Assembly (NCBI GenBank): GCA_017531765.1 | Contig: JAFXKJ010000118.1 | Span: 1 to 38,029 of the forward strand | DNA: 38,029 nucleotides | Origin: Clostridia bacterium | GTDB lineage: Bacteria; Bacillota; Clostridia; Oscillospirales; CAG-272 | Reading direction: 5' to 3' | Shown: positions 13,537 through 35,350 of the stretch, piece by piece | Numbering within the stretch: position 1 is the stretch's first letter | Layout: every line of letters starts with the position of its first letter | Position numbers and translations under genes: made by a program | The notes under the pieces: generated by a model | What the model was told of the DNA's origin: nothing | What the model saw: only the letters and a program-made list of their open reading frames with translations | Databases searched by the model: none

Positions 13537-15921
13537 ATGAAAATTCTCGATTACATAAAAGACAATCTGCTGTTTCTTGACGGCGGTATGGGAACTCTTC
13601 TTCAGAAAAGCGGACTTCTCCCGGGTGAGGCTCCCGAAAGGTGGAATCTCACCAACCCCGACAAGATATGTGCAATACATAAAGCATATTTTGATGCAGG
13701 CTCAAACGTGGTGTCCACCAATACCTTCGGCGCAAATTCGCTGAAGTTTTCCCCCGACGAGCTTGAAGAGATCATCAAGGCGGCGGTGGAAAACGCACGA
13801 CGCGCCTCTGAAAGTTCAACCAACTGCGGAGAAAAATTCGTAGCACTCGACATCGGCCCCACGGGCAAATTACTGAAGCCCTTCGGGGATCTTGATTTTG
13901 AGGACGCGGTGTCAATTTTTGCGGAAACTGTCCGTCTCGGTGTAAAATACGGTGTTGACCTCATCTTCATTGAGACAATGAACGATCTCTACGAAACGAA
14001 AGCCGCCCTCCTTGCCGCAAAGGAAAACAGCACTCTCCCCGTATTCGTTTCCAACGCATACAGCGAAAACGGATGCCTCATGACTGGTGCTTCCCCCGAG
14101 GCTGTGTCGGCGACTCTTGAGGGTCTCGGCGCAGATGCAGTCGGTGTAAACTGCTCCTTCGGTCCCGACCATCTCGCCCCCGTGGTGGAAAGGCTCCTTG
14201 AGGTGTCAAGTGTCCCCGTGATACTGAAACCAAACGCGGGTCTGCCCTCGGTTTGCGGCTGTGAGACTCATTACGACGTGTCTCCCGAGGATTTCGCCGA
14301 AAGCGTATGCCGACTCATAAAGAAAGGTGTCCGCATTGCAGGCGGTTGTTGCGGCACCACTCCCGAATACATAAAGGCACTCACCGATACGGCAGGCTGC
14401 GTGACTCCCGTACCCGTAAGTGAAAAAAATATCACCCGCGTTGCGTCATACACCCACGCGGTTAAATTCGAAAACTACCCTCTCATCATCGGAGAAAGAA
14501 TAAATCCCACAGGTAAAAAGAAGCTGAAAGAGGCTCTCCGCGAGCATGATCTCGATTACATCCTATCGGAAGTATTCTCACAGCGTGATCTCGGCGCTCA
14601 CATCTTAGACGTGAACGTGGGTCTTCCCGAGATAGATGAAGTATCCCTTCTCACCGAAGCGGTATGTGAGATCCAGGCTGTGTGCGACCTGCCCCTACAG
14701 ATCGACACCTCCGACCCCATTGCCATGGAAAGCGCCCTGAGACGGTATTCGGGTAAAGCGATGATAAACTCCGTAAACGGAAAAGCATCCGTTATGGATG
14801 CGGTGTTCCCTCTTGCTAAAAAATACGGCGGAGTTGTCGTTGCGCTGACACTTGACGAAAACGGAATTCCGTCTACGGCGGAGGGCAGAGTCAAAATCGC
14901 AGAAAAGATCCTCCGCCGCGCGGAGGAATACGGCATAAAGAAGTGCGACGTGGTGTTCGACACATTAACCATGACTGTCAGCACCGACGAAAACGCCCCC
15001 GCAGTCACCCTCTCGGCTCTTGACACCGTGAAGCACACTCTCGGCTGCCACACCGTGCTTGGAGTTTCAAACGTCAGCTTCGGTCTGCCCTGCCGCGACA
15101 CCGTGAACAGCTACTTCTTCACCTGTGCCATGGAAAGAGGACTTTCAGCGGCTATAATGAACCCCACTTCGGAAGACATGATGCGCGCATACAGAAGCTT
15201 CATGGCTCTTCACGGGTTTGACCCCATGTGCGGCGAATATATAAGCTTTATGGCGGACAAGGTCGGCGCATCCTCAGTAGCAGGGGTAAAAGCCGCACAG
15301 ACCTCCGCAGATGCCGTAACCCTTGCAGGTGCCGTTGAGAAAGGCATGACCTCCCTCGCCGCAGAGCTTTGCACCGAGGCTCTGAAGGACTCCGACAGCA
15401 TGACCCTCGTGGAAAAAGAGATAATACCCGCCCTCGACAGAGTTGGCAAAGGCTTTGAAGAAAAGAGAGTTTATCTGCCTCAGCTTCTCATGAGCGCGGA
15501 AGCGGCAAAAGCGGCTTTCGAGGTAATAAAAGACCGCATGACAGGCGGCAGTGTCAGCACAAGATACGACTTCGTCCTTGCCACCGTAAAGGGTGACATT
15601 CACGACATCGGAAAGAACATAGTAAAGCTTCTCATGGAAAACTACGGCTACAAGGTACACGACCTCGGTCGTGACGTGCCTCCCGAGACGGTTGTCGCCA
15701 AGGTTATTGAAACCGGCGCGCCTCTTGTGGGACTTTCCGCCCTTATGACCACCACCGTTGTGGCAATGGAGGAAACCATAAAGCTCCTTCGGGAAAAGGC
15801 TCCCTTCTGTCGCATTATCGTAGGCGGTGCGGTGCTTACCGAGGATTACGCAAAGGCGATCGGCGCCGACTTCTACGCGGCAAGCGCAATGGATGCGGTA
15901 AGATATGCCGAAACACTTTGA
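13537..15921 (+). CDS. metH: Cobalamin-dependent methionine synthase, lacking the activation domain
   Basis: Transfers a methyl group from methyltetrahydrofolate via cobalamin to homocysteine. The order of domains is: homocysteine-binding barrel with zinc cysteines (V-N-C-S near 204 and G-G-C-C-G-T near 269-273); pterin-binding barrel starting with G-E-R-I-N-P-T-G-K near 318; cap and B12-binding domain with G-D-I-H-D-I-G-K near 686-693 (His is the lower cobalt ligand). It stops at 794 aa, so the SAM-dependent reactivation domain of E. coli MetH (about 1,227 aa) is missing; in many Clostridia that domain is a separate protein. None is in the window. It lies 21 bases after the rsuA-type gene. 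Confidence 0.92.
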   Translation: MKILDYIKDNLLFLDGGMGTLLQKSGLLPGEAPERWNLTNPDKICAIHKAYFDAGSNVVSTNTFGANSLKFSPDELEEIIKAAVENARRASESSTNCGEKFVALDIGPTGKLLKPFGDLDFEDAVSIFAETVRLGVKYGVDLIFIETMNDLYETKAALLAAKENSTLPVFVSNAYSENGCLMTGASPEAVSATLEGLGADAVGVNCSFGPDHLAPVVERLLEVSSVPVILKPNAGLPSVCGCETHYDVSPEDFAESVCRLIKKGVRIAGGCCGTTPEYIKALTDTAGCVTPVPVSEKNITRVASYTHAVKFENYPLIIGERINPTGKKKLKEALREHDLDYILSEVFSQRDLGAHILDVNVGLPEIDEVSLLTEAVCEIQAVCDLPLQIDTSDPIAMESALRRYSGKAMINSVNGKASVMDAVFPLAKKYGGVVVALTLDENGIPSTAEGRVKIAEKILRRAEEYGIKKCDVVFDTLTMTVSTDENAPAVTLSALDTVKHTLGCHTVLGVSNVSFGLPCRDTVNSYFFTCAMERGLSAAIMNPTSEDMMRAYRSFMALHGFDPMCGEYISFMADKVGASSVAGVKAAQTSADAVTLAGAVEKGMTSLAAELCTEALKDSDSMTLVEKEIIPALDRVGKGFEEKRVYLPQLLMSAEAAKAAFEVIKDRMTGGSVSTRYDFVLATVKGDIHDIGKNIVKLLMENYGYKVHDLGRDVPPETVVAKVIETGAPLVGLSALMTTTVVAMEETIKLLREKAPFCRIIVGGAVLTEDYAKAIGADFYAASAMDAVRYAETL

Positions 15922-23592: not shown

Positions 23593-24351
23593 ATGAAGAT
23601 CGACGGACATACACATCCAAATCTGCTCAAGGTCCCCTCTCAGGGTGACGACTTCATCCGCCGCGCGGCGGAGCTTGGCTTTGACAGCATAATTTTTACC
23701 GATCATATGCCCTTTACAGTCACGGGAGACGAGCACGACCGAATCCCTTTCGGCATGGTAAGCGACTACTGCCTGGCAGTAAAAGAATTGTCAGAAAAAT
23801 ACCGTAACATTATCGGCGTGGCTTGCGGCATTGAGATCGATTACAGAAAAAGCTGTGAGGACGAGATCCGTGAGGTGTTGTCCTGCGGAAGCTTCGTGCG
23901 GGTCCTCGGCTCATCTCACCTTAACATAAAAGGCTTCAGCATCCCCTTCGGCAAGCTTACACGGAGCGAGTATGCCGCCCGTGTTATTGAAAACTACATT
24001 GACGCTGCTGACTCGGGACTCTTTGACGTTATGACTCATATCGATGTTTACCGATGGGTGTTCTCCGAGTCTGAGACCTATCCTCTTGCAGACGACGGCT
24101 TTTACGTAAACGCCGCCCTCGAAAATCTGCTGAGACATCTGTTCCTGTCAATGGAAAAGAGAAACATCGCTCTTGAATACAACACATCCCCGCTGTTCAA
24201 GAAATTCGACTCTGACGGCGCGTACCCCGCAAGGGAAATTTTGAATATCGCATCGGATTACACCCTGAGATACACCTACGGTTCCGATGCCCACGCCGCA
24301 CACCACGTAGGATTTGCCTACGACAGCTTTGAAAAAATATTCAAGCCATAA
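23593..24351 (+). CDS. PHP-domain metal-dependent phosphoesterase (histidinol-phosphatase-like)
   Basis: The PHP fold binds three metal ions; the visible ligand motifs are D-G-H-T-H-P (4-9), F-T-D-H-M-P, E-I-D, S-S-H, M-T-H-I-D and Y-G-S-D-A-H. HisK-type histidinol-phosphate phosphatases have this arrangement and length (about 250-270 aa), but no other histidine biosynthesis gene is present, so the substrate is open. AAAGGA precedes the ATG. The gene follows znuB by 75 bases, within which a partial inverted repeat is visible. It is probably the last gene of the zinc-linked run; a metal-dependent hydrolase fits such a run but is not proof of a link. Confidence 0.83.
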   Translation: MKIDGHTHPNLLKVPSQGDDFIRRAAELGFDSIIFTDHMPFTVTGDEHDRIPFGMVSDYCLAVKELSEKYRNIIGVACGIEIDYRKSCEDEIREVLSCGSFVRVLGSSHLNIKGFSIPFGKLTRSEYAARVIENYIDAADSGLFDVMTHIDVYRWVFSESETYPLADDGFYVNAALENLLRHLFLSMEKRNIALEYNTSPLFKKFDSDGAYPAREILNIASDYTLRYTYGSDAHAAHHVGFAYDSFEKIFKP

Positions 24352-24390
24352 AAAAACCACCCGTGTCCTGCCTGACACGGGTGGTTTTTT
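24352..24390. terminator. Bidirectional terminator
   Basis: AAAAACCACCCGTGTC, loop CTGCCT, GACACGGGTGGTTTTTT. The first arm overlaps the PHP gene stop codon. It ends the zinc operon on the plus strand and the abrB-like gene on the minus strand. Confidence 0.95.
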
Positions 24391-24701: not shown

Positions 24702-24730
24702 ATTATAAACCATTATTTTCCCTTTGTCAA
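24702..24730 (-). promoter_or_regulatory. Consensus promoter of the abrB-like gene
   Basis: On the minus strand: TTGACA (24730-24725), 17-base spacer, TATAAT (24707-24702). Both hexamers are perfect. Confidence 0.85.
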
Positions 24731-24775: not shown

Positions 24776-25624
24776 TCACACCAACCCGATCCTGTCTAAT
24801 ATGACAAAAATTCTCAGCATATCTTCCCTCAGCGACAGTTTTGTGCCGTCACCCATCAGATATTTTTTGTTTGTCAGCTTCAAAACAGTGTCCCTTGCCC
24901 ACTCGGGACAGTCCTCAATTCGGTCATAGCTTTTGTTTTCCTCAATAAGTCTGTCCACGTTCCGTTTAAGCTTAGAAAGATCGGCTCTTTCACTTTCTGT
25001 CATGTCCTTTTCACCTCCAACGCCGAAATACTCCAAAAGCACCTCTGCTTCCGCTTCGGCAAGTTTCTCAAGATTTTCCTCCGACATGAGCCAGAGTGTT
25101 GCTTCTCTGTTGGTGTGAAAGCTATGCTCCACGATCACACCGGGAACCCCCACGCTTTTCGCCCCGAACAGCACGCCGTAATACTCATCATCAAGAAGTC
25201 CGTTGCCGTCGCGGTCGAAATCCGTCATCTTGGTGTAGATCACAGATTCTGTCACACCCATGATACGGCTTACCGTATCTCCGATAAGTCTTCCCACTTC
25301 CCTTGATATGTCGTCTGAGTCCGTGTTCACGTCATCCGAAAAGCATATCATCCACGGAGAGGTAGCCGCCTCATTATTTGACGCATTTGAGTGAAGTGAC
25401 AAAAAAAGGTCATACCCCGCACTCCGCCTGCCGCGTTCAACGAGAGGCGGATCATCGTCAATATTCTCCCTGGTCAAGCCCACGTAAAACCCACGCCTTT
25501 CCAGAGAAAGCTTCAGCTTTTGAGCAAGACTCCAGGTCATTTCGGACTCAAAGTATCCGCTTACTGCGGGAGAAGCGTTATAATACCTACCCGCGTGCCC
25601 GGGATCAAGCATAATTTTTACCAT
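24776..25624 (-). CDS. N-acetylmuramoyl-L-alanine amidase (Amidase_3), endolysin-like
   Basis: Zinc amidase that cleaves the bond between muramic acid and the stem peptide. Zinc ligands: H10 (L-D-P-G-H), a glutamate near 26-28 and H78 (S-L-H-S-N); the catalytic glutamate is in V-I-V-E-H-S-F-H. The last 75 residues form a separate domain, probably wall-binding, with P-E-W-A-R-D-T-V-L-K-L and S-L-R-E-D-M-L-R-I. No signal peptide is present, as for phage endolysins, which normally need a holin; none is seen. It is the last gene of the phage-type cluster. GGAG is 11 bases before the ATG. Confidence 0.9.
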   Translation of the reverse strand: MVKIMLDPGHAGRYYNASPAVSGYFESEMTWSLAQKLKLSLERRGFYVGLTRENIDDDPPLVERGRRSAGYDLFLSLHSNASNNEAATSPWMICFSDDVNTDSDDISREVGRLIGDTVSRIMGVTESVIYTKMTDFDRDGNGLLDDEYYGVLFGAKSVGVPGVIVEHSFHTNREATLWLMSEENLEKLAEAEAEVLLEYFGVGGEKDMTESERADLSKLKRNVDRLIEENKSYDRIEDCPEWARDTVLKLTNKKYLMGDGTKLSLREDMLRIFVILDRIGLV

Positions 25625-25661
25625 CTGAACCGATTCTCCTTTCCGTCAGTCAAAATACGCG

Positions 25662-26171
25662 TCAGATCCTCGACTTTACAAATCCGCAAAGACTCGCTTC
25701 ATCCCTTGTGTCTTCTATCATCACGTCAGTAATATCGACGGTATCCTCACCCACCGTAACCTTAGCTAAAACAAGGTCGCAAAGAGAAGGACTTCTCATA
25801 GGTATGACTCCGTGATCGTCTTCATACACCATCAGCTCCGCTTTGCCGTGAGTCCCGTTGAATCTGAGGAAAACAGTGTACTCGTGACCGTTTTCAAGCT
25901 CAAAATACACGTCCTCCTCAAGAGTTGCCATATATCCGTTACCCCATGCGATACCCGGAGTCACGGCTATGGACAGGTCCCCGCCGGGGTAAACCTTAAA
26001 CTCCTCTCCCTCGCCCTTCACAATGCCGTGTGAAATAATGCAGGAGAGCATTTTTGCAAAGAATGCGGCGTCCACTGCCTTGTCTCCCTTGGGGAAGCCG
26101 TTGAGTGTATCCACCACTCTTGTGGAATTAAAAAGTCCGCCGCTGATCTCTTCGGTTGCAATAATCGCCAT
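25662..26171 (-). CDS. Phage-type accessory tail / baseplate protein, unrecognised
   Basis: 169 aa, no firm family. The N-terminus resembles phage baseplate or receptor-region proteins (S-G-G-L-F-N-S-T-R-V-V-D-T-L-N-G-F-P-K-G-D-K-A-V-D-A), followed by beta-rich segments (V-T-P-G-I-A-W-G-N-G-Y-M and Y-T-V-F-L-R-F-N). Position between the Gp37-like protein and the amidase suits a small tail-tip or fibre-base protein. The frame opens three codons earlier, but AAAGG abuts that ATG; the ATG at 26171 is nine bases from it and was preferred. Confidence 0.7.
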   Translation of the reverse strand: MAIIATEEISGGLFNSTRVVDTLNGFPKGDKAVDAAFFAKMLSCIISHGIVKGEGEEFKVYPGGDLSIAVTPGIAWGNGYMATLEEDVYFELENGHEYTVFLRFNGTHGKAELMVYEDDHGVIPMRSPSLCDLVLAKVTVGEDTVDITDVMIEDTRDEASLCGFVKSRI

Positions 26172-26217
26172 ATCATTCATCCTTTCATTCTGTTATTTTC
26201 TTAACGTACCGGTCTTC

Positions 26218-27246
26218 TCAGACTTGACGGACACTGTCTCTGATGTACTCGTCAAGACTGACTGAAAAGCCGCCAAATAAGGGTGTTACCGTGAGAGTAT
26301 CTCTGCCGTGGAAGGTGTATTTCACCTCCGTTATCCTCTCAGTCAAAGTCATCCCCGATGACGTGTCTATTTCGCATATATCACCGAGATCGTAATCCAC
26401 CCCAAAACGTAACCCCCCCGAGGCACACCCGCTGTATGTAACAGCTCCGCCGTACCTTGAAAGTGTCTCAAGCCCACGGCTTTTAAGCGCCTCGAAATAT
26501 TCGTCCTCAGTGGCGAAATCCTCGGGGTACAGGTCACGTCCGCTGACGAAAAGCTCTCGTCTGTCAAAAGGTGAAGCCTCAGTTACAACGGTAACGCTTC
26601 TGCCATCTGCACCCAATACGTACGCCGTATTTTTATGTTCGGAAATATCGATCTTCACCCGACCGTCGGTCACGTTTCCCATAGACTCGGAAAATACAGC
26701 GGGAGTGTTCTGCGTTTGATTTCTGCTTCTGTCCTTTCCCGTGACAACAATGAACACGGGAGTATTCCCCGACAGCTCCACCCTATAGGCGGCGCCGAAG
26801 GTGCGGAGAGTGGAGTAAGCAAATTCCGACAGATTTCTGTAGTCGCTCTCAAAATATCCCTCTCCCTCAAGCCCCGACACGTCCCCGAGGATCATACCCG
26901 AAAGGCTTCTTTCCCCCGACGTACTTTTTTCAACGGCAAGCCGTACCGCCTTCTCAGCGTTTCCCGAATAACGTCCCCTGCCGTCAAGAATTCTCTTTTC
27001 AAGCAGTGCTTCCAGACTCCTTCCGCTGAGAGTCGTCTTGCCGCCCTCTTCTTCATACCCCTCTATGATAAAACAGCTTTTGCTTACGGGTTCGTACAGA
27101 GCATAAGCCGAGGAAAGGTGCGCTTTTCCCTTAAGTGTCATCCTGAATTCACCGGGAGAAAAGAATCTTTTCGCCGCCTCTAAAGTTATACAATTGTCTA
27201 TAATACCCACTGTATTAAATGAATTGTCCAATAAATATACTTCCAT
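26218..27246 (-). CDS. Phage tail protein, siphovirus ReqiPepy6 Gp37-like
   Basis: The 342-residue protein matches the Gp37-like family of tail-tip (Tal/baseplate-hub type) proteins: an N-terminal E-V-Y-L-L-D-x-x-x-x-x-V-G-I-I-D segment, G-E-F-R-M-T-L, S-G-R-S-L-E-A-L-L-E-K-R-I-L near 85, and a C-terminal beta region with D-Y-D-L-G-D-I-C-E-I-D. These proteins follow Dit in siphophage tails. GGAGG lies four bases from the second of two adjacent ATG codons, so 27246 was used rather than upstream codons. Confidence 0.85.
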   Translation of the reverse strand: MEVYLLDNSFNTVGIIDNCITLEAAKRFFSPGEFRMTLKGKAHLSSAYALYEPVSKSCFIIEGYEEEGGKTTLSGRSLEALLEKRILDGRGRYSGNAEKAVRLAVEKSTSGERSLSGMILGDVSGLEGEGYFESDYRNLSEFAYSTLRTFGAAYRVELSGNTPVFIVVTGKDRSRNQTQNTPAVFSESMGNVTDGRVKIDISEHKNTAYVLGADGRSVTVVTEASPFDRRELFVSGRDLYPEDFATEDEYFEALKSRGLETLSRYGGAVTYSGCASGGLRFGVDYDLGDICEIDTSSGMTLTERITEVKYTFHGRDTLTVTPLFGGFSVSLDEYIRDSVRQV

Positions 27247-27282
27247 CATGCCTCCGAAACCTGTTTTTATGGTGTTTTGCAC

Positions 27283-28140
27283 TTAGACGCCTGCATAATA
27301 CGGCGTAAAGCATATCTCCGCCAACAGATTTTTCGTGTCTCCCACCGACATAACGGTCAGGCGATTTTCGCCGGGTTCAAGGGAGAAGAAATTGCTCTCG
27401 CGGGAGAAATTATACCTCACCACACCGTTAACGCTCACTCCGCACTTACCGCGCCGCGTGTCGAAAACCGCAACGTCACCGATCTTCAAGGTCTCCATAA
27501 GCTGAAGCCTCTTTCCGTTCAGAAGAAGTGCCGGGTCAGTCACGTTTCCGCCAACGGCGCTGACCTTTACCGAAAAGCCGCAGGGCACGTCTCCCGGGTT
27601 ATATATCTTGTGCACTGTTCCCACCGAAGCGAAGGACGGAACGAATCCCGCCTCCTCCATGACGTTAAGCGGGAATGTGAAAAGTCCCTCTGACGAAGGC
27701 AGAGTCAGCGCCTCCGTTTTATTTTCGGTAAAATAAGGCTCGGGACAGACAAAATGAAGTCTCACCTCGGGGAATGAGTTCACGTTTTCTCTGATAAACT
27801 CCGCTTTACCCGCAGGATATGCCCCAATGCTTCTCCGTCTGCCGAACAGATCCGCCGTGATATTCACTTCGCGGCGACTGCTCATTATCTTCAGTATCTG
27901 GTCCCGAACACTCCTATACTCTCCTCTGTCCGTCACTTCAAAATGTATGGACAGCTCCCTGGGTACGCAGTCATACTTCACCACGACCCCGCCGTCCCCA
28001 AAAGCGGAGGGTACCACCTCACATTTGAGCTCGGGAGGAGACTCAAAGCCTTTAAGTCCTCCCTCAAGTATTCTGCACACGGTATATGGAGCAAGTGTCA
28101 GCTTCCCCTCGTCTGCACGGATCCGAATAATACTTCTCAT
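27283..28140 (-). CDS. Distal tail (Dit-like) phage tail protein
   Basis: 285 aa. N-terminal domain with F-E-S-P-P-E-L-K-C-E and D-R-G-E-Y-R-S-V-R-D-Q-I-L-K-I, then Y-P-A-G-K-A-E-F and a C-terminal galectin-like beta domain, the arrangement of siphovirus distal tail proteins that form the hub between tube and tip. The start overlaps the previous gene by four bases (ATGA). In ordinary siphophages a tape measure gene of 2-5 kb would lie immediately upstream; here there is none. Confidence 0.82.
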   Translation of the reverse strand: MRSIIRIRADEGKLTLAPYTVCRILEGGLKGFESPPELKCEVVPSAFGDGGVVVKYDCVPRELSIHFEVTDRGEYRSVRDQILKIMSSRREVNITADLFGRRRSIGAYPAGKAEFIRENVNSFPEVRLHFVCPEPYFTENKTEALTLPSSEGLFTFPLNVMEEAGFVPSFASVGTVHKIYNPGDVPCGFSVKVSAVGGNVTDPALLLNGKRLQLMETLKIGDVAVFDTRRGKCGVSVNGVVRYNFSRESNFFSLEPGENRLTVMSVGDTKNLLAEICFTPYYAGV

Positions 28141-28973
28141 ACGCTCACACTCCCCTCACACGTAAACTCTCCCGTTTCAGAGTTAAAGATACCGCTGACC
28201 GCTTCTCCGTCACGCATAAGTTTTCCCTTGCATAAAGCATCGGTAACGTACAGCTCCGACAGCTCATACCGTGCCATCTCACCTCTTCCATCGGGGAACA
28301 CGGTATACAATGTCACCTTCTGCTTGTCATAAAAAATTGGAGCAAGAGCGCATCGCTTCACCGTAGTCTCGAATTCAAAATCAACGCTTCGACACTCCCC
28401 CGTTTTGCGGTAAAGTAAAGAATCGCCGTCAAAATACCGTCTCGCGTGCAGTACATTCTCACCGTATTCTCTGAAAAGAGTACACCCGACTCCAATGGGA
28501 ACGGGAGCTTCATTGTCGAATGAGACGTAATACAAAGCTCCGTCAACGGGAGTGACCTCATAGGTAAACAAAGTAAACTCAGCGAAAAACTCCCACACCG
28601 TGCCGTCCGTGGCAACTCTCTTCAGTGCCCCCTCTTCAAGTGTGAATCCGTCGGTATCCAAAAGAAAGTCGGATAACCTTTTCACGTATCGGATCAATAT
28701 CCCCTCAGCCTTGAATATATCCTCCGCAGTCGCGGCTCTGTGTCTGAGATAAAGTCTGAAGCCCTCACTGACCCGATGAATACCGCCCACGTACTTCGTG
28801 ACCACACGTCTGCCGTCAGTCATTGGCACAAGCCACAGATCGTATCTGCTGACAGCCTTGGCAGATCTGTACGGCACCACCGCCGCAGTTTCGTCAAAGG
28901 AAGTCATAAGACGGCAAAGGCGCAGTGTCAGACTGCCGCTGTCACTTAAAAACTCGTCCTTTGTATATTCCAC
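28137..28973 (-). CDS. Phage-type structural protein of unknown role (neck or tail)
   Basis: 278 aa, not recognised. It is located where siphophages encode tail terminator, tail tube and tape measure. The sequence is beta-rich, with a middle alpha segment (D-I-F-K-A-E-G-I-L-I-R-Y-V-K-R-L). The first 140 residues and the last 130 look like two domains. The second has V-D-F-E-F-E-T-T-V-K-R and short strands consistent with a tube-like or Ig-like fold. A fusion of neck and tail-tube functions is possible but only inferred. The start is GTG with GGAGG five bases upstream. It overlaps the Dit-like gene by four bases. Confidence 0.72.
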   Translation of the reverse strand: MEYTKDEFLSDSGSLTLRLCRLMTSFDETAAVVPYRSAKAVSRYDLWLVPMTDGRRVVTKYVGGIHRVSEGFRLYLRHRAATAEDIFKAEGILIRYVKRLSDFLLDTDGFTLEEGALKRVATDGTVWEFFAEFTLFTYEVTPVDGALYYVSFDNEAPVPIGVGCTLFREYGENVLHARRYFDGDSLLYRKTGECRSVDFEFETTVKRCALAPIFYDKQKVTLYTVFPDGRGEMARYELSELYVTDALCKGKLMRDGEAVSGIFNSETGEFTCEGSVSV

Positions 28974-28986
28974 ATAATCCTCCTTT

Positions 28987-29328
28987 CTACTTCAAAAGAA
29001 GGCGTGTGTGGTGTACGTTAAGATTTCCCGCGACGTAATGCTCCGCCGACGTCACACGCATTGACGAGGCGGGAGGTGCAAAAGCAAATGCTTCACTGCT
29101 CGGCGACACCTCTCCTAAAAGAATAAACGAGCCTTCTCGGATCTTAAATGGAGGGATGTGCTTACCGCTAAAGAAGAATTTTGCTCTGTCATAGAAAACG
29201 TAAAGGCAGACTTCTCCCTTGGAAGCCGAGCACAGACTTACGTTTTTCAGAGAAAATTTTCGAAAGATAACTTCAAGTCCGTCTCTGTCAACGGGCACGT
29301 ATAAAGTAACGTTTTTTCGGTTAAGCAT
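28987..29328 (-). CDS. Small phage-type protein after the connector, unrecognised
   Basis: 113 aa, beginning MLNRKNVTLYVPVDRDGLEV. Mostly beta-strand-like, in the place of a head-tail joining or stopper protein. The ATG overlaps the stop of the preceding connector gene by one base (TGATG) with GAGGTG six bases upstream; a longer open frame upstream runs through the connector gene and gives arginine-rich sequence unlike the rest, so it was not used. A role as head-closure protein is inference from position. Confidence 0.72.
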   Translation of the reverse strand: MLNRKNVTLYVPVDRDGLEVIFRKFSLKNVSLCSASKGEVCLYVFYDRAKFFFSGKHIPPFKIREGSFILLGEVSPSSEAFAFAPPASSMRVTSAEHYVAGNLNVHHTRLLLK

Positions 29329-29669
29329 CACGCCCACCTCGTAATAAGCCCTGCACGGGTAAGAGCAGTCACAGCCTCGGAAGACACAGGCAGAGACGAG
29401 GCGGCGACTGTGCCCGCCTTGCCGTAGCTTACGGAATAATCCCCGAGAGATTCCTTTGTAATACCGCATTCCGTCTGAGCGTTTGAGATAAGATGATCCA
29501 CCTCAGCGGCGAGTGCTCTCAGTACCGCAGGCTCGGTGAAGCCTTCCGCATCACGTCCAATGAGAAGTGAGATAACATCAAAAGCGGACGGCGCATAGCG
29601 GCTAAACTCATCCTCCCCTGCCTTGCCTCCGAAAACGTCGCAGTAATATGAATAATCAAACTTTACCAA
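29328..29669 (-). CDS. Phage head-tail connector-like protein
   Basis: 113 aa. The helical N-terminal half (S-A-F-D-V-I-S-L-L-I-G, A-L-A-A-E-V-D-H-L-I-S-N) and a G-D-Y-S-V-S-Y segment resemble adaptor proteins (gp6/gp15 type) that bind the portal ring below the capsid. It lies directly after the coat gene, as in siphophages. The start is TTG with GGAAGG eight bases before it. It is translationally coupled to the next gene (TGATG). Confidence 0.75.
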   Translation of the reverse strand: MVKFDYSYYCDVFGGKAGEDEFSRYAPSAFDVISLLIGRDAEGFTEPAVLRALAAEVDHLISNAQTECGITKESLGDYSVSYGKAGTVAASSLPVSSEAVTALTRAGLITRWA

Positions 29670-29735
29670 AATAATCGCCTTCCTTTCCTCTGCCGCCCCC
29701 GTTTGGGGAGGCGGCAGAACTTAAAAGAATACTTA

Positions 29736-30842
29736 TCAGCCCATATAACGGCAAGCAAGCTCGGGATAGAGCGTTGCGAAGGAATAAAGCACATCCATGG
29801 AGAGCATTTCTCTCTTGTACTTCATGTCGTAACCGCGAACGACTCTCAGTGAGATGCCGTTGTAGGTTGTAACGTAGCTCTCAACACCCGCGGGAGTGGG
29901 GAGAGGACGGGAAACAAAGCCGAATGCGCTGGGATGGAACACGAGGTTCGCACTGTGGGAGGGAGCAACCGTCACGATCTCACCTGCTGTTGCGGTGACT
30001 GCAGGATAAAGCTTCACAGTGATCCTGCCGCCTTCCGACGCGGCATCCTCCTTCACCGTGTAAGTCTTAACGCCCACGGTCACAACGTCACCCTTGACTA
30101 CGCCGCCATTAAGTCCGGTGCCGACAAGGGTGACTGTATCTTCACCTGCCACGTCACTCTCAACAGTGATCTTGCCGCTGTCCGCAGAAAGATCACCCGC
30201 CTCATGATGTCTTACCGCCTGAGTCATGTAGTTTGAGATGCCGAATACGTCACCGATGGAACCGCTTCTGAGAGCAGTGCAGTCACCACTCTTCTCGGCG
30301 TTCACAAGTGCGGGGATCTGCTTGAACGCCGCTGTAGCCTCGGGAGACCACACAGCGCTTCTTGAGCTTGAAGGCACCTTGTTGCTGTCAAGAATATACG
30401 CCGCAAGGGCAAAGTCGGAGAGAGACGAGGGGGTCTTGCCCGCTTCACCTCCGACGTAGGGAATGTCACGGTAGAGATCAAGTCCGTCGTTGTTGATCTT
30501 CTCCGCGAGGGCCGCCGCCGCAGGCTCGATAAAGAGTCTCTTGACAGAGTCAAAGTCAAGAGCACCCTCAAGAGCTGAGATCTCCGCATCGACCGTTGCA
30601 ATGCGGTCAAGCTTAACGTTTACGGATTCCTCCGCAATGTTCTGTGTGCTGACGCCGTCAGCAGCTGAAAAGTCCTGGGCAGTCAGCTTAACGGGACGGC
30701 GGATGGCAACGGTGTCACCCTTTTTGGCGCATCCTGCCTGTCCCATGTCTCTGTAGATAAGATTGGGAAACACGAGATTGTCGATAAGTCTCGGAAGAGT
30801 TTCCCTTGCGATCTGTTTTACTGAAATAAATGTGTTTGCCAT
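29736..30842 (-). CDS. Major capsid protein, P22 coat-like
   Basis: 368 aa. The N-terminal arm (M-A-N-T-F-I-S-V-K-Q-I-A-R-E-T-L-P-R-L), a K-G-D-T-V-A-I-R-R-P segment, and late Y-x-x-x-Y-N-G-I-S-L-R-V-V-R-G-Y-D fit the P22 coat branch of the HK97 fold. A beta-rich insertion around residues 225-305 (V-E-S-D-V-A-G-E-D-T-V-T-L-V-G ...) resembles an inserted domain. No protease gene precedes it, consistent with scaffold-only assembly as in P22. AAAGGA precedes the ATG. Confidence 0.85.
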   Translation of the reverse strand: MANTFISVKQIARETLPRLIDNLVFPNLIYRDMGQAGCAKKGDTVAIRRPVKLTAQDFSAADGVSTQNIAEESVNVKLDRIATVDAEISALEGALDFDSVKRLFIEPAAAALAEKINNDGLDLYRDIPYVGGEAGKTPSSLSDFALAAYILDSNKVPSSSRSAVWSPEATAAFKQIPALVNAEKSGDCTALRSGSIGDVFGISNYMTQAVRHHEAGDLSADSGKITVESDVAGEDTVTLVGTGLNGGVVKGDVVTVGVKTYTVKEDAASEGGRITVKLYPAVTATAGEIVTVAPSHSANLVFHPSAFGFVSRPLPTPAGVESYVTTYNGISLRVVRGYDMKYKREMLSMDVLYSFATLYPELACRYMG

Positions 30843-30924
30843 AGTTTAACCATTCCTTTCTTTTGTTTCGGGTAAAATCTCACCCTGAGTTGAAATTTCC
30901 TTTCGATTTCGACCTTGTCTGCCA

Positions 30925-31395
30925 TCACAGCATCTTTCTGTAGCTGTAATATTCGCTGTCACTCATAGAATCGGTATCAAGCACCGCCCCCGTGTGGGTA
31001 CTTCCCGTTGAAAACGAAGGCTCGGGAGCACCCTTGAACATATAAGGCTCTGACTTCATCAGAAGCCTTACTCTGTCCTCCGCGGCAAGCCTTATTTCCT
31101 CATCACTGCCGCCGATTCCGTCACAGCCGATCACACCCGCCGCAAGCTCGGGGTTAATAGCTCCCCTTTTGGCAAGCTCCAACTTCACGGCATAACTCAC
31201 GCGATGTGCATCAAGCTTCCTTTCAAGCTCATCGCGGACACTCTGCAGCTCCCCCTGAAGCTCCGCCTCACGACTTGCCGAAACAAAGTCGTCTGCACTG
31301 CCCTCAAGGATCACAAGCCCCGCCGCGGCAAGCTTTTCGGTGAATTCTTCACAGCTCAGACTTCCGCCGCCGAACAGCTCTTTAATATCTGCCAA
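30925..31395 (-). CDS. Phage capsid scaffolding protein
   Basis: 156 aa, highly charged, with a coiled-coil-like central part (E-A-E-L-Q-G-E-L-Q-S-V-R-D-E-L-E-R-K-L) and an L-A-K-R-G-A-I-N-P-E-L motif typical of GP20/DUF4355-type scaffolds. It sits between portal and coat genes, the normal place. The start is TTG with GGAGG seven bases upstream; an ATG in the gap is in another frame. About 140 bases separate it from the portal gene; nothing was recognised in that gap. Confidence 0.82.
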   Translation of the reverse strand: MADIKELFGGGSLSCEEFTEKLAAAGLVILEGSADDFVSASREAELQGELQSVRDELERKLDAHRVSYAVKLELAKRGAINPELAAGVIGCDGIGGSDEEIRLAAEDRVRLLMKSEPYMFKGAPEPSFSTGSTHTGAVLDTDSMSDSEYYSYRKML

Positions 31396-31537
31396 CTCAT
31401 ATCCTCCTTTCAGTTAATTTTATATGAAACTGCCTTTCGACAGCCAACCCGGACATATTAATCTCCATTCAGCCTACGACTGCATCAAAATACGTGAAAT
31501 CACAGCGGCTTAGATCAAAACTGTCTAAACCTTCACG

Positions 31538-32962
31538 CTATTTATCTTCTCCCGTCATCAGCCTTGCCATCTCCTCGCTCTCCCCGCGCCACTTCATTCT
31601 GAATTCAAAGGGCTTCATAAGTCCCGCCTCCACTTCAGCGCGGTCTCTCGTTCTCTCCGACTCCGAATCAATAAAATAACTGTCGTCAAAACGTACCGAC
31701 ACCTCGCAGTCCTCGTCAAGCTCTGCACCTATCACGTGCTTTCCCGCCCAAAGAGCGGCACGGATGATACTGACGAGAAACTCCGTAACGTTTACTCTGT
31801 GACGTGCGGTGTTCTGAATGAGGTCCTGCATCTCTCCGGTATACTGAGTTGCCGTAAGCTGAGCCTTACCCTGAACTCCCGAGAAAAGGTAGTGCCTGGT
31901 GCCGAGACCGCATCTGAATGACAGATAATCAAGCTGATGCTGAACCGCCACGGCGTTCTCCTCGGCGCGAAGCGAGGGATTATGCTCCTTTATCATGGTC
32001 TCGCCATCGATATCACCGTCACCCACGGTAACAAAAAGCTGCTGAGCCACGTCGTCGGGGGTATATGTGACACCGTCCTCCCCTCTCATCACAAGACTGC
32101 GGTTCACGAATACCTTTTTGCCCCCAAGCTTCAGATCCCTGCAGAAATTGTTGAACGCAAGGTCAACCCCCCTCAGACAGTCCGTAGCCTGCGCGAAAAC
32201 GGACACGCCAAGTCCCGAGAGCTCGTCGATATAATTGGTGATACACGGTGTCAGAACGGCGAAAAGAGGTACAAAGCTTCCCGTTCTCACAACGGAGGCA
32301 ACGCCTCTCTTGGGCGGCACGGCTTCAAGCTCACCGTTTTTCATGCAAAGCCACTCGTTTGTGATAACGTATCCGTCCTCCTCAAGTCTGTGAAGCTCCA
32401 CGTATACCGTATCACACCCGTCCTTCCTTGCTTCGGAGATAAATGCCGCCTCGGTGATCCTGCCGCCTTGGGTGGATATGGGCACGATATGCGCCGCATC
32501 CACGAAATCCACTCTCAGCTTAGTGTTCCCGTCACCCGTCAGCCTTCCGTCGCGGAGCTTTACCCCGTCAAGGCGAAGCAGTGCCGCACCGCTGCCGAGA
32601 CCGAACACCTTTTCGATCATCCTCGTCATTCCGCGAAGAAGTCCCGTCTCACCGATAAAGCCGTGCTGACCGTCACTGCCGCCCAGCCACTCATCACTTT
32701 TTGAGTCCGAAGCTTTAATATAGGTCTTCTCACCCATAATGAGACTCGCCCAGTCCTCGCAGATCTTCTTCGCCATATTCAGACTGTAAAGACGGCGCTT
32801 TATGGGAAAGCCGCCGTTTCCGTTTTCATAAAACTCGTGGAAGCTCCTGAGATGCCCCTTCATCCATGCCCCCCACTCATCAATGCGGGCGTAATACTCA
32901 CGGGGAGAGGTGATCCCATGTGCCCTCTCAAGATAATCAAGTATTTCGTTGTTCATTTTCAT
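31538..32962 (-). CDS. Phage portal protein (SPP1 gp6-like)
   Basis: 474 aa. The portal ring is the DNA entry channel of the capsid. Recognised from N-terminal L-Y-S-L-N-M-A-K-K-I-C-E-D-W-A-S-L-I-M-G-E, central beta segments, G-L-G-T-R-H-Y-L-F-S-G-V-Q-G-K-A-Q-L-T-A-T-Q, and the long helical region near the C-terminus, as in Firmicute phage portals. Full length, no frameshift. AAGG lies four to five bases before the ATG. The acidic C-terminus and length agree with the family. Confidence 0.87.
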   Translation of the reverse strand: MKMNNEILDYLERAHGITSPREYYARIDEWGAWMKGHLRSFHEFYENGNGGFPIKRRLYSLNMAKKICEDWASLIMGEKTYIKASDSKSDEWLGGSDGQHGFIGETGLLRGMTRMIEKVFGLGSGAALLRLDGVKLRDGRLTGDGNTKLRVDFVDAAHIVPISTQGGRITEAAFISEARKDGCDTVYVELHRLEEDGYVITNEWLCMKNGELEAVPPKRGVASVVRTGSFVPLFAVLTPCITNYIDELSGLGVSVFAQATDCLRGVDLAFNNFCRDLKLGGKKVFVNRSLVMRGEDGVTYTPDDVAQQLFVTVGDGDIDGETMIKEHNPSLRAEENAVAVQHQLDYLSFRCGLGTRHYLFSGVQGKAQLTATQYTGEMQDLIQNTARHRVNVTEFLVSIIRAALWAGKHVIGAELDEDCEVSVRFDDSYFIDSESERTRDRAEVEAGLMKPFEFRMKWRGESEEMARLMTGEDK

Positions 32963-33011
32963 GACCCTTCCTTTTTTTACTTTGTATTTCTCTTTTTATT
33001 TTATATTTCTC

Positions 33012-34328
33012 TCATCCGCCCTTGACAAGCTTCCCCATGTACCTTTCAAAGGAATATTCCACAGCATCAAGTATGTCAATATCGGATGTAAAGTTGTCAA
33101 GTCTTACGTCGTCCTCCCTTGACGGGTCCCAGATCGCTTCCGCAAATCCGCGCACGGTAGCTCTGCAGTCCTCCAAAACGTGGAACCTGCCCTGCACCAT
33201 CAGAGAGTTCACACAGTCTATTCTGTCTCGGATGCGCCGCTTTGCACACTCTCCCACACTTACGGGGTCTCCCGATCTTTTCATAAACGTCCGCAGACCG
33301 TTGATCAGATACTGCGCCTCGCTGTCGCAGAATGCGTAGCGTATCTCCACGCCCGGAAAATCCCGCCTCAGCTCTCTCACGAAGGATAAGAACTCTTCAT
33401 TCACTCTCACGGGATCGATTTCACCCTTGCCTCCATTTATCGCATGATCCTTTATAACGCACAGCGAGTCTCCGATAAATGCAGTTGCCGCAAAGGTGGT
33501 AAGAGACCTGTTCCCGCCGAAATCCACACCGATGTTGATAAAATCCATCCGTTTTCCCGAAATCGCATCGCGGGGTAAAATCACCTTGTCCCTGTTTTTT
33601 GCAAAGTATGTATATATAAGTCCCTCTGCGGCACATCTCTCCCCGAGAATGTCACGTCTGTACCACACCGAGTTTTTCTCGTACTGCGACTCTATCTCGC
33701 GGAGTCTCTCGGGAGTTACATTGGGGTTGTCGTATATGGTAAAATGCCCGTAATTGTAAAAGTCGCAGCTGTATTTTCCACTCTCCATCCCCTCGGCATA
33801 TCGGTCTATGTACTCGGTGTATATGGGAGAAGTGGGCGAGGAAGGGTTAAGGTCCCAGAACACCCTTCTGTCCCGTGCGGCAAGCTGACGGTTGAAAGCC
33901 TCCCGTATCATGGTCTCATGGTGAAGATTTATTTCTGTGGCTATCCACATTCCGTAGGAATTACCGCGGATCTTTTTGTAAGAATCTGCATTCTTCCCTC
34001 CCGCGAATACGATTATCTTCTCCCCCGACTGTGTGTTTACCTTCATACATTCACAGCCGCGGTAAAGACACCACTTGAATCTCCCCTCGAACCGTTTTTC
34101 AAGTCCCAGCCCATTGCAGTCTCCGATGGTTATCTTGGCACTTGAAGCAGTAGCTCCCGTTGCAAGGTGGTACCTGTCGGGACTTCGCTCAAGAAGATGC
34201 CCGAACACGTACACGTTATCTACGGTCTTGCCCGCGCGGACCGCACCTTCCGCAACGTTGATCTTCGACATAAGGCACCGTTTCATGTAACCGAGATGCT
34301 TTTCACCGAAATTATAGCCGTCAGACAT
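33012..34328 (-). CDS. Phage terminase large subunit (PBSX-type)
   Basis: Motor ATPase and nuclease for packaging DNA into the capsid. Walker A G28-A-V-R-A-G-K34-T35, Walker B region M-W-I-A-T-E131 with catalytic glutamate, and RNase H-like nuclease aspartates D268 (I-G-V-D-F-G-G-N), D334 (F-C-D-S-E) and D421 (D-I-L-D-A-V-E-Y). All key residues are present at the usual length (438 aa), so a functional enzyme is expected. Its ATG overlaps the small-subunit stop by one base (TAATG). Confidence 0.92.
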   Translation of the reverse strand: MSDGYNFGEKHLGYMKRCLMSKINVAEGAVRAGKTVDNVYVFGHLLERSPDRYHLATGATASSAKITIGDCNGLGLEKRFEGRFKWCLYRGCECMKVNTQSGEKIIVFAGGKNADSYKKIRGNSYGMWIATEINLHHETMIREAFNRQLAARDRRVFWDLNPSSPTSPIYTEYIDRYAEGMESGKYSCDFYNYGHFTIYDNPNVTPERLREIESQYEKNSVWYRRDILGERCAAEGLIYTYFAKNRDKVILPRDAISGKRMDFINIGVDFGGNRSLTTFAATAFIGDSLCVIKDHAINGGKGEIDPVRVNEEFLSFVRELRRDFPGVEIRYAFCDSEAQYLINGLRTFMKRSGDPVSVGECAKRRIRDRIDCVNSLMVQGRFHVLEDCRATVRGFAEAIWDPSREDDVRLDNFTSDIDILDAVEYSFERYMGKLVKGG

Positions 34329-34708
34329 TACCCGTCAACTCCGAGAATCTCTCTGTCAAGATCCTTGAATTTTTCAATAAGTGTCCCGTTACCGCCGAGC
34401 ACCGCACTTCCTCCCGGTTCTCCGATAAGCTCCCTCAGGGTCTTCGCCGCCCTGACGTCTCCCCCTCTTGCCACCGAGGCGAGGCATTTCATGATTCGCG
34501 CCATCTCTGCTTCACCCGCCCTCGAGGACAACTCACGCACCTCTGAAACGTATCCGTCCTCGCTGAGCCATCTTGCAAACTCACTGCGTTCCACTCCGTA
34601 CTTGTCAAGTATTTCGTAGGTCGACACAGCCTCAGCGGAAAAGACAAGCTCCAGCATCACCGCCGCCTTCTTTTCCTCCTCACTGAATTCGCGCTTTTCA
34701 TTCTCCAT
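34328..34708 (-). CDS. Phage terminase small subunit-like protein
   Basis: 126 aa. The N-terminal helix-turn-helix (Y-E-I-L-D-K-Y-G-V-E-R-S-E-F-A-R-W-L near 30-48) and a helical oligomerisation region with A-R-G-G-D-V-R-A-A-K-T-L-R-E-L-I-G fit small terminases that select the DNA substrate. The family is diverse, so the call rests partly on its place immediately upstream of the large subunit. It overlaps the preceding gene by 11 bases. Confidence 0.8.
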   Translation of the reverse strand: MENEKREFSEEEKKAAVMLELVFSAEAVSTYEILDKYGVERSEFARWLSEDGYVSEVRELSSRAGEAEMARIMKCLASVARGGDVRAAKTLRELIGEPGGSAVLGGNGTLIEKFKDLDREILGVDG

Positions 34709-35036
34709 CGCCGTACATCCTCAGAACAAATTTATTCATGGCGGCACGCTTCATTCGGTACACCGTGCTTGCCGCGCAGTCGTATTTACTGCTGAGCCTT
34801 TCTGCGGCGTGAGGCTCACCCTCGATATAAAAGGAATTCAGTATATCCCTTTCCTTGTAGTCAAGCCCCGAAAACGCCGCCTCCGTCACCTCAACGTCTA
34901 CCTTCGCTCTCTTATATCGCTCCAAAAGCCCACCTTCTCCGCAGGCTATCAGCCTTTTCATGCTTTCAAGAGCATTCTTTTTGCCGTTTAATTCTCTCAG
35001 CATCTTTTTCGCATCCTTCATCAGTTTTACGTTCAC
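34698..35036 (-). CDS. Phage-type sigma-70 region 4-like regulator
   Basis: 112 aa. The C-terminal half (F-S-G-L-D-Y-K-E-R-D-I-L-N-S-F-Y, then E-R-L-S-S-K-Y-D-C-A-A-S-T-V-Y-R-M-K-R-A-A-M) is a helix-turn-helix of the sigma region 4 / ArpU-RinA type found in phage late-gene activators. The N-terminal half is lysine-rich and helical. The start is GTG at 35036, with GGAAGG six bases upstream and a four-base overlap (GTGA) with the previous stop; an ATG seven codons earlier lies inside the preceding gene. It may activate the structural genes or act in DNA recognition with the small terminase. Confidence 0.75.
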   Translation of the reverse strand: MNVKLMKDAKKMLRELNGKKNALESMKRLIACGEGGLLERYKRAKVDVEVTEAAFSGLDYKERDILNSFYIEGEPHAAERLSSKYDCAASTVYRMKRAAMNKFVLRMYGDGE

Positions 35037-35257
35037 GTTTTTCCTTCCTTTCTGCATTCGCCACAGTCATTATCAAACAAATGTTCGCCTGAGCTTTCAA
35101 AAAATAAATTGCCGCTGCCGTCGGCGACGTAGGCTGAGCGGTCAATGCACCCGTAGCAACAGCTTCGACCGAAAACGAAGTACGCAAGCTCCCCCACGTA
35201 GATCGTCTCACCGCAAAGACTGCACCTGCCTGCCTTGGCGCTTTCCCTCATGGGCAT
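35033..35257 (-). CDS. Small zinc-finger protein, first gene of the phage-type cluster
   Basis: 74 aa. Cysteines C-S-L-C, then S-C-C-Y-G-C, and C-G-E-C near the end suggest one or two zinc sites. No named family was recognised. It is the first gene after the LexA-controlled promoter and overlaps the sigma-like gene by four bases. Start uncertain: a GTG at 35272 or ATG codons at 35257 and 35251 are possible; 35257 is the better distance from GGTGAG. Confidence 0.6.
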   Translation of the reverse strand: MPMRESAKAGRCSLCGETIYVGELAYFVFGRSCCYGCIDRSAYVADGSGNLFFESSGEHLFDNDCGECRKEGKT

Positions 35258-35295
35258 TGGTATTTGTCTCACCTTTTTTCAGAACGCCTCCCGTC

Positions 35296-35307
35296 GAACA
35301 CTTGTTC
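35296..35307 (-). promoter_or_regulatory. LexA (SOS) box 1, downstream of the start point
   Basis: GAAC-ACTT-GTTC, with an outer C on the left (CGAAC), matches the Firmicute LexA consensus CGAACNNNNGTTCG in all eight core positions. It lies about 8 to 19 bases after the predicted start of the phage-type cluster transcript, where a bound repressor would block elongation or initiation. Confidence 0.85.
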
Positions 35308-35321
35308 TTTTCTATGGCTGT

Positions 35322-35350
35322 ATTATACCACCGAACGCTTGTTCTGTCAA
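35322..35350 (-). promoter_or_regulatory. Consensus promoter of the phage-type cluster
   Basis: On the minus strand: TTGACA (35350-35345), 17-base spacer, TATAAT (35327-35322), both perfect. It would be a very strong sigma-A promoter unless repressed. Predicted start near 35315, about 58 bases before the first gene. LexA box 2 fills the spacer. Confidence 0.92.
35333..35344 (-). promoter_or_regulatory. LexA (SOS) box 2, in the promoter spacer
   Basis: GAAC-GCTT-GTTC with flanking C on the left, a full match to the core GAACNNNNGTTC. It lies between -35 and -10, the classic position for exclusion of RNA polymerase. A weaker third candidate with one mismatch (AAAC-AAAT-GTTC, 35075-35086) is inside the first gene. 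Confidence 0.88.

Follow-up and report, generated by a model that had tools for sequence, protein, structure and literature searches.

A conserved phage-derived operon with LexA-type boxes and a terminator-tube fusion in uncultured Clostridia: a probable domesticated particle of the gene transfer agent type

The stretch of DNA considered here (the window) comprises 38,029 nucleotides (nt) and is the entire contig C78 (JAFXKJ010000118.1) of a metagenome-assembled genome (G000, assembly GCA_017531765.1; 2.23 Mb, 74.8% complete) of a Clostridia bacterium of the lineage Oscillospirales, CAG-272. Because the assembly is 75% complete and the window is a single contig, the absence of a gene elsewhere in this genome is weak evidence. 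The window carries on its minus strand a cluster of 14 tightly packed genes, all of whose frames are open (24776-35272), and which probably constitutes a domesticated, phage-derived operon for a particle of the gene transfer agent (GTA) type under host SOS control. At the sequence level the operon is intact, conserved and under selection, it lacks recognised integration genes, its promoter contains LexA-type boxes and one of its genes fuses a tail terminator to a tail tube. The order, strand and overlaps of the genes were as described in a first-pass annotation made from the DNA letters, and its calls of both terminase subunits, portal, scaffold, P22-like coat, connector, distal tail protein (Dit), Gp37-like protein and amidase are backed by profile searches.

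The operon opens with a small Cys-rich protein of 74-79 amino acids (aa), zinc-finger-like by eye (35033-35272; an open frame with homologues), whose homologue stands at the equivalent place in all six genus relatives that carry the cluster (five of six by blastp), followed by a sigma/ArpU-like phage regulator of 112-119 aa (34698-35057; phrog_36 E 1.8e-6, phrog_248 E 4.4e-6). The terminase small subunit (TerS; 34328-34708, 126 aa) keeps a helix-turn-helix (HTH)-like N-terminus, matches phrog_24579 (E 2.2e-6) and falls just below the cut-off of PF13022, and the terminase large subunit (TerL; 33012-34328; phrog_2 E 2.2e-26) keeps its active-site residues, in agreement with the earlier description: all 13 aligned rows share the Walker A motif (GxxRxGKT), E132 and the acidic residues D269, D335 and D421 without change. 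The head genes proper are those of the portal (31538-32962; phrog_533 E 8e-83), the scaffold (30925-31395; phrog_194 E 2.6e-5; PF06810 below cut-off) and the major coat protein of the P22 coat family (29736-30842; phrog_283 E 4e-79; PF11651 E 4e-41); TerS and scaffold score under the curated Pfam cut-offs, yet match PHROGs. The TerS of the f10 locus L033 could be aligned with phrog_2606 over positions 145-255 of 310 only. A head-tail adaptor (29328-29669; phrog_541 E 4.9e-12) precedes a stopper or head-closure-like protein (28987-29328) that has no match in the Pfam and PHROG searches and whose role is read from its position, a homologous gene lying in the same place in relatives; a start at 29328, giving 113 aa, is more likely for it than the 160 aa annotated before. 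The terminator-tube fusion (28137-28973) is followed by Dit (27283-28140; phrog_33 E 2.7e-20; PF22768), a Gp37-like tail hub (26218-27282; PF14594 E 1e-37; phrog_538), a virion structural protein of 172 aa with the PHROG label "head protein" (25662-26180; phrog_9534 E 4.5e-15) and an N-acetylmuramoyl-L-alanine amidase, the endolysin (24776-25624; PF01520 E 5e-20; phrog_435). All 14 genes lie on the minus strand. The G+C content of the cluster resembles that of the surrounding DNA, and host genes border it closely: AbrB-like, PHP and ABC-3 genes at one end, genes for a pseudouridine synthase and a TetR regulator at the other. The AbrB-like gene adjoining the 3' end of the cluster has a 12/12 consensus promoter of its own (24702-24730) and is followed by a perfect 17-bp inverted repeat (24351-24390).

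Two genes had been left as unknown neck or tail proteins and no recognisable tail tube had been seen. The stopper-like gene keeps a neck role by its position; the other, at 28137-28973, now reads as a protein of 278 aa made of a tail terminator (N half) and a tail tube (C half), and a tube is therefore present, according to hhalign, alignments, models and Foldseek. A profile of the fusion from five genus members (the window, G005, G006, G009 and G010) was compared by hhalign with the separate families of near relatives: the N half matched the terminator family at 95.7% (94.1% with family f10 added) and the C half the tube family at 98.0%, E 2.5e-13 (95.6% with f10 added), against 0.4% in the control comparison of the terminator with the tube profile. 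The separate tube corresponds to phrog_3099 (no function given) and in f10 also to phrog_820, "major tail protein", and the separate terminator of locus L017 weakly matches phrog_3266, "tail completion" (E 0.009). The gene caller places the terminator and tube genes of L017 1 nt apart, and the longest frames share 8 nt; in its relatives L117 and L119 the two form a single protein of 282-283 aa; within the genus, the tail genes are separate in G007 and G011 and fused into one gene in the other five carriers. The G005 fusion was modelled as two domains (predicted local distance difference test, pLDDT, 87.5; predicted template modelling score, pTM, 0.76), the AlphaFold model of the window fusion being weak (pLDDT 63). 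Foldseek with the G005 model returned tail tubes (monocin, NF5, lambda, T1) together with terminator or neck proteins (SaPI1 neck, RcGTA neck, R4C stopper-terminator); since the matches of both models are mixed and come without ranges, the halves were assigned from the profile comparison. Such a fusion would fix one tube subunit per terminator subunit and hence a single ring, and the tail of the window cluster is probably one capped ring. No earlier report of a terminator-tube fusion was found among the titles and opening lines of abstracts in the literature searched.

The window cluster has no tape measure, as had been stated, the start of Dit overlapping the stop of the fusion by 4 nt and leaving no room for one. 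Reading, locus by locus, the gene or genes between chaperone or tube and Dit gave a series of decreasing size: 967 aa in L021, 330 in L018, 286 in L020, 259-262 in L126, L129, L130, L131 and L133, 236 in L019 and L022, 147 in G007 and G011, and 115 in L134. Genes of 47-48 aa in L017, L120, L117 and L119 retain only a C-terminal motif (PYxxAxxIRRxSE-like), which a 55-aa frame of G005 also bears; G006 has a gap of 113 nt before Dit in which this motif was not found. No trace of a tape measure is left in the window cluster, G009 and G010, where the end of the fusion gene and the beginning of Dit share 4-8 nt. The cluster tree of the genus orders G007 and G011 (147 aa), then G005 (55 aa), then the four genomes without a tape measure (supports 95/95 and 98/99; midpoint root), an order that the RpoB tree does not reproduce. 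In L081 (family f44) the tube is directly followed by Dit, and among the 15 loci of f10 nine run from tube to hub without an intervening gene and five (L066-L070) keep a Gp15-type chaperone in the absence of a tape measure. These five belong to genus g128 (Phage_Gp15-type chaperone at L066:7414-7887), and in three of them a gene of 48-58 aa separates the chaperone from the hub; L058 (3873-4871) has in the tube place a 332-aa protein with no tube-profile match, whose C-terminal part is long and of low complexity. Left out of the series were loci with wrong-frame gene calls in GC-rich sequence (L024, L025, L115, L116, L125, and partly L122-L124 and L140), labelled tape measures in an odd context (L139, 195 aa; L142, 293 aa; L141, 728 aa) and unlabelled genes of 795-1339 aa at the tape-measure position in L135-L137, L155 and L156, which were not counted. 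Taken as read from these loci, the relatives appear to show graded stages between a long-tailed phage and a near-tailless form.

Tails lengthen by about 1.5 angstrom per tape-measure residue. For the lactococcal phage TP901-1, the extrapolated tail length is reported to reach zero when the tape measure has 127 residues (PMC5099701). Because of this zero point, a tape measure of 147 aa leaves about 20 residues, or about 3 nm, which is less than one ring. The natural sizes of 147, 115, 47-55 and none pass through the TP901-1 zero point and bear on the control of tail length by the tape measure.

The operon promoter (35322-35350, minus strand) is a 12/12 consensus, TTGACA-17-TATAAT, and the same promoter is found in all seven genus clusters. 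It is combined with two LexA/SOS-type boxes, to which no strand was assigned: box 1 (GAACNNNNGTTC, 35333-35344) lies within the promoter spacer and box 2 (35296-35307) just downstream of the -10 element, 37 bp from box 1. Both are present in 7/7 clusters at a spacing of 36-37 bp, and GAACNNNNGTTC opens the spacer in every one of them, with one mismatch in G005. The number of boxes was rejected as evidence by itself, the window having two strict matches and 17 of 100 shuffles having at least two; the case for the boxes therefore rests on their position and on their conservation in 7/7 clusters. Upstream of lexA, GAACNNNNGTTT occurs in 8 of the 11 loci read in the same genus (the twelfth genome gave a weak match and was left out); this is the form listed for C. 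difficile lexA in the published account, which gives GAACN4GTTC as the LexA operator of B. subtilis and GAACNNNNGTTT/C as the pattern of clostridial searches (PMC4234289). Beyond the seven genus clusters, L017 has one strict LexA-type box 55 bp before TerS, three g128 loci (L068, L069 and L070) have a strict box 195-294 bp upstream, the other two (L066 and L067) have the GTTT form, and L033 has a form with one mismatch. From this arrangement, the operon is probably switched on by DNA damage via the SOS response, and the boxes thus predict a switch that can be tested.

A coat homologue at 70-75% identity occurs in 6 of 11 same-genus relatives, and PF11651 marks seven of the 12 genus genomes, that of the window included. 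The backbone order is identical in all seven, and the cluster is not the property of a single strain, an outcome that the first-pass annotation had named as refuting its reading. In family f10 a related coat is present in 16 of 20 genomes, as one copy each and without stops, and the coat profile finds 19 of 394 genomes in an evenly drawn sample of the order and 7 of 391 in one of the class, so its distribution is patchy. Six of the nine g78 carriers (f10) have the cluster at one site, with c25 and c26 on one side and acetate kinase on the other; two more share another site, and the contig of the ninth is too short to tell. At the site shared by six g78 genomes (L033:4701-5720 and 13596-15336) the cluster is accompanied by a GH18-like gene (by eye) and, in most of the six, by lipoprotein-like genes, maybe recruited accessories. 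Insertion sites differ within the genus: the rluA side is common to the window and G009, the rpmH-rnpA-yidC-jag side to G009 and G006, and the Ca-ATPase/hpf side to G007 and G011. The common site between abrB and rluA that had been predicted was thus recovered on the rluA side, in G009, and not otherwise. An abrB-like gene beside rluA in G003 was considered as a clean empty site and discarded; the two genes are convergent there and divergent in the window, a rearranged neighbourhood.

A tree of TerL, portal and coat was compared with an RpoB tree in 19 genomes (TerL missing for G448). Of 16 splits, 12 recur in both trees; when labels were shuffled within genus and within family, 2.4 splits recurred on average and never more than 6 (1000 trials). 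The four unshared RpoB splits have bootstrap values of 50-69 and Shimodaira-Hasegawa-like approximate likelihood ratio (SH-aLRT) values of 56-97; two of the four unshared splits of the cluster tree are well supported (95/95 and 98/99), and for this reason the branch order inside the genus is not settled. As judged from these trees, inheritance of the cluster seems to be largely vertical, from parent to offspring. The ratio of nonsynonymous to synonymous substitution rates (dN/dS) and the synonymous rate (dS) were obtained by a simple counting method. Between G007 and G011, dN/dS is 0.08 for TerL, 0.10 for the portal, 0.15 for the coat, 0.12 for the tube and 0.13 for the 147-aa tape measure; the cluster genes of this pair range over 0.03-0.41 and the labelled cluster genes of G111-G164 over 0.05-0.27, TerL being among the most constrained genes (0.03-0.08 across the four pairs that include it). 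These values, also suggested as a check beforehand, are far below 1 and indicate purifying selection. For G111-G164, dS is 0.39-0.93 in the cluster genes and 0.26-0.73 in adjacent host genes, the two ranges overlapping.

The earlier statement that no holin is present holds for the window cluster and fails for the genome, since a PF05105 holin lies on contig C116 of the same assembly. The holin is absent from the cluster in the window, G005 and G009, and the other four genus carriers have PF05105 within the cluster. At the end of C116 the holin adjoins fibre-like genes (L194:4808-7189); this end falls inside a repeated segment and is likely an assembly break. The corresponding locus of G005 (L195:9384-13167) encodes a PF05105 holin, a phrog_1084 small protein and two further proteins, one of 175 aa and one of 725 aa, the latter with a metallophosphoesterase domain. 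Its neighbours are host genes: arginine genes and asnA precede or follow it at one end, and a pduL-like gene stands at the opposite end. This second operon has a consensus promoter (by eye) directly preceded by AAACAAATGTTC, a LexA-type box with one mismatch. A second locus is thus seen in G005 and probably in G000, with proteins that differ between the two.

In each of the five genus genomes without the window cluster (G001, G002, G003, G004 and G008) there is a compact cluster of another kind, which encodes a Phage_capsid_3-type coat, TerL, portal, internal virion protein, fibre, holin-like protein and amidase (L035:6566-20000, L198:1-3608, L205:6887-19421, L206, L036 and L196:4716-15560); the second-type coat was found at E 1e-8 in none of the seven window-type carriers. 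Identity of this coat is 41% for G003 and 87-100% for the rest. The two coat types are distant kin (27% over 122 residues; profile E 2e-9 and 7e-7; both match phrog_267), and the portal, tail and internal proteins of the second type match other families than those of the window type. On the RpoB tree four of the five genomes form a clade, and G003 stands apart as sister to the genome of the window, which implies at least two switches of particle type; replacement of one type by the other is suggested by these two independent events, short of proof. Across the wider family the second coat is found in 35 of 118 genomes, with several matches apiece in some of them, so this type also exists as something less fixed. 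A strict box lies upstream of the coat gene in the G003 cluster, and XRE-like and ImmA-like genes (by eye) stand in front of those of G001, G004 and G008. A wider reading, to which we would give about even weight, is that the genus has as a host trait an SOS-triggered DNA-packaging slot always filled by one of two domesticated phage types (7 vs 5 of 12 genomes, with at least two switches), the window type being a siphophage tail eroded to zero tape measure and locked at one ring by the terminator-tube fusion, an evolutionary path leading from long tails to almost none. A slot always filled by interchangeable domesticated phages would argue for a benefit to the host.

For the window cluster, a GTA-type particle would work as follows. 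On DNA damage LexA would be cleaved and the operon would fire, perhaps with help from its small regulator; a head would be built from scaffold, coat and portal, and the terminase would fill it with chromosomal DNA by the headful. A hexamer would close the neck, every terminator subunit in it bringing one tube subunit and no more, and the resulting single-ring tail would be bound directly by Dit and the Gp37-like hub. The second locus would supply fibres and holin, the amidase would lyse the cell, and the freed particle would deliver DNA to kin, as a GTA, or harm neighbours. We infer SOS induction, headful packaging of host DNA, the one-ring tail, release, and delivery or killing from the genes; the cluster thus resembles a GTA in its predicted workings, a resemblance that falls short of proof of membership. 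The central proposal of the first-pass annotation, a retained particle that packages DNA, is nonetheless supported, and none of the contrary results it had named appeared.

Several points weigh against a domesticated GTA-type operon. The particle is predicted from its genes, the 278-aa fusion has no direct Pfam or PHROG match, and a strict box within 350 bp of TerS was found in none of the seven f10 loci scored outside g128 (L032, L033, L057, L058, L061, L063 and L064). Since the window TerS keeps its HTH-like region, non-specific packaging is not implied, and delivery of DNA into a cell may fail without a tape measure. The second locus of G000 is cut by the contig end and no promoter was seen for it, and G009 (82% complete) gave no PF05105 match. 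Several tail genes have dS values above those of neighbouring host genes, more so in the wider pair L033-L057. The flanks read were short for some relatives, and an integration or replication gene could lie elsewhere in a genome that is 75% complete.

Among the alternatives, the one that survives best, though we hold it to be clearly the less likely, is a killing or competition particle like PBSX, which would pack chromosomal DNA without delivering it and harm rivals by adsorption or lysis. It would accord with the SOS-type boxes on the operon, with the kept hub and amidase and with a separate fibre and holin locus (G005, partly G000) whose proteins are unlike between the two genomes; so would the loss of the tape measure, described as necessary for infectivity in TP901-1 (PMC5099701), and the authors of the GTA of Faecalibacterium (FpGTA) leave the killing option open too in their published account (PMC12946183). 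However, none of the 14 genes matched a sheath or contractile tail, and the constraint seen in TerL (dN/dS 0.03-0.08) would not be needed by a pure killer, for which DNA is dispensable.

It is improbable that the cluster is a very small phage or satellite that remains mobile and relies on genes for integration and replication located elsewhere in the genome or supplied by a helper. The genus genomes, 55-96% complete, would leave room for such genes, and the cluster sits at different sites among genus members. IMG/VR lists relatives (L114-L153) as viral contigs of a few to 14 kb, the best 21 (57-64% identity) lying on contigs of 4.6-14.2 kb. Against mobility stands a scan of the flanks in the window and four relatives that used 51 of the 56 proteins listed, leaving out three cut by the end of a contig or close to it and two that nearly duplicate those of L030. 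None of the 17 PHROGs matched at E 1e-10 or better is described as integration, 10 of them having no description. This bears out the reported lack of an integrase, as the absence of direct repeats of at least 16 nt bracketing the cluster bears out the lack of att-like repeats at its borders; D4, the sole repeat pair with a copy just outside the 3' end of the cluster, has its other copy inside TerS. The largely host-congruent trees and the shared sites of g78 carriers (six of nine at one, two at another) also speak against movement. In the 14 genes and the flanks read, phage-derived structural genes occur without recognised integrase or replication genes, and integrase, repressor, replication genes and att sites of an intact prophage were not encountered. 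Capsid-forming phage-inducible chromosomal islands (cf-PICIs) have their own integrase and replication module, neither of which was encountered within the same flanks; of the three options offered at first, a capsid satellite is now unlikely, and a GTA-like particle and a killing particle both remain. A decaying prophage remnant, which the short length and the missing lysogeny and replication genes might suggest, is very improbable, as the first annotation had held, given open frames, kept catalytic residues, dN/dS well below 1 and a promoter with boxes conserved between species.

Given the IMG/VR entries, virus catalogues may count fixed host clusters as phages. The single-copy, host-tracking relatives across several uncultured Clostridia families form a kind of element open to comparative study. 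To our knowledge, GTAs outside the alphaproteobacteria have barely been described. Among phages, the closest comparisons are a Mogibacterium pumilum element (L021; coat 56% identity) and Gordonia phage VanLee (coat 38%). L021 has TerL, portal, scaffold, coat, tube, chaperones, Dit and hub in the same order and differs by its 967-residue tape measure and separate tube gene. RcGTA and other alphaproteobacterial GTAs differ in that they keep a tail, and the RcGTA structures of the PDB among the Foldseek matches include tail-neck parts. PBSX of B. subtilis is contractile-tailed and Xre-controlled, whereas neither a sheath nor an Xre match occurs among the 14 genes of the window; the likeness is that PBSX is described as a mitomycin-induced particle with host DNA, GTA-like yet tailocin-acting (PMC12946183).

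Alphaproteobacterial GTAs, RcGTA included, are reported to be mostly vertically inherited (PMC10883770), with genes dispersed over operons (PMC12946183). Their direct regulators are given as GafA/RogA and CtrA/quorum sensing (PMC9632790, PMC6473078), and links to LexA are described for R. capsulatus, via cckA, and as predicted LexA sites in the promoter of the GTA cluster of Dinoroseobacter shibae (PMC6473078). FpGTA (Borodovich et al., 2026) is presented, in January 2026, as the first GTA of the human gut and, among Gram-positives, the second GTA-like system, with heads of about 40 nm that hold about 8.5-9 kb of host DNA and a second operon with fibre, receptor-binding protein and holin; the same account places GTA-like packaging also in Christensenellaceae and describes GTAs as inducible through SOS (PMC12946183). 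The terms "tape measure" and "LexA" do not occur in the text of that paper (PMC12946183). As described there, FpGTA resembles the window cluster in its gut Clostridia host, its head operon of about 10.5 kb without replication genes, its fibre and holin genes in a second operon and its podovirus-like form with no identifiable tail (PMC12946183). It differs in that FpGTA I is likened to short-tailed phages, whereas L021, the nearest full phage relative read for the window cluster, is long-tailed. Likened by its published description rather than by sequence, FpGTA appears to be the nearest described precedent.

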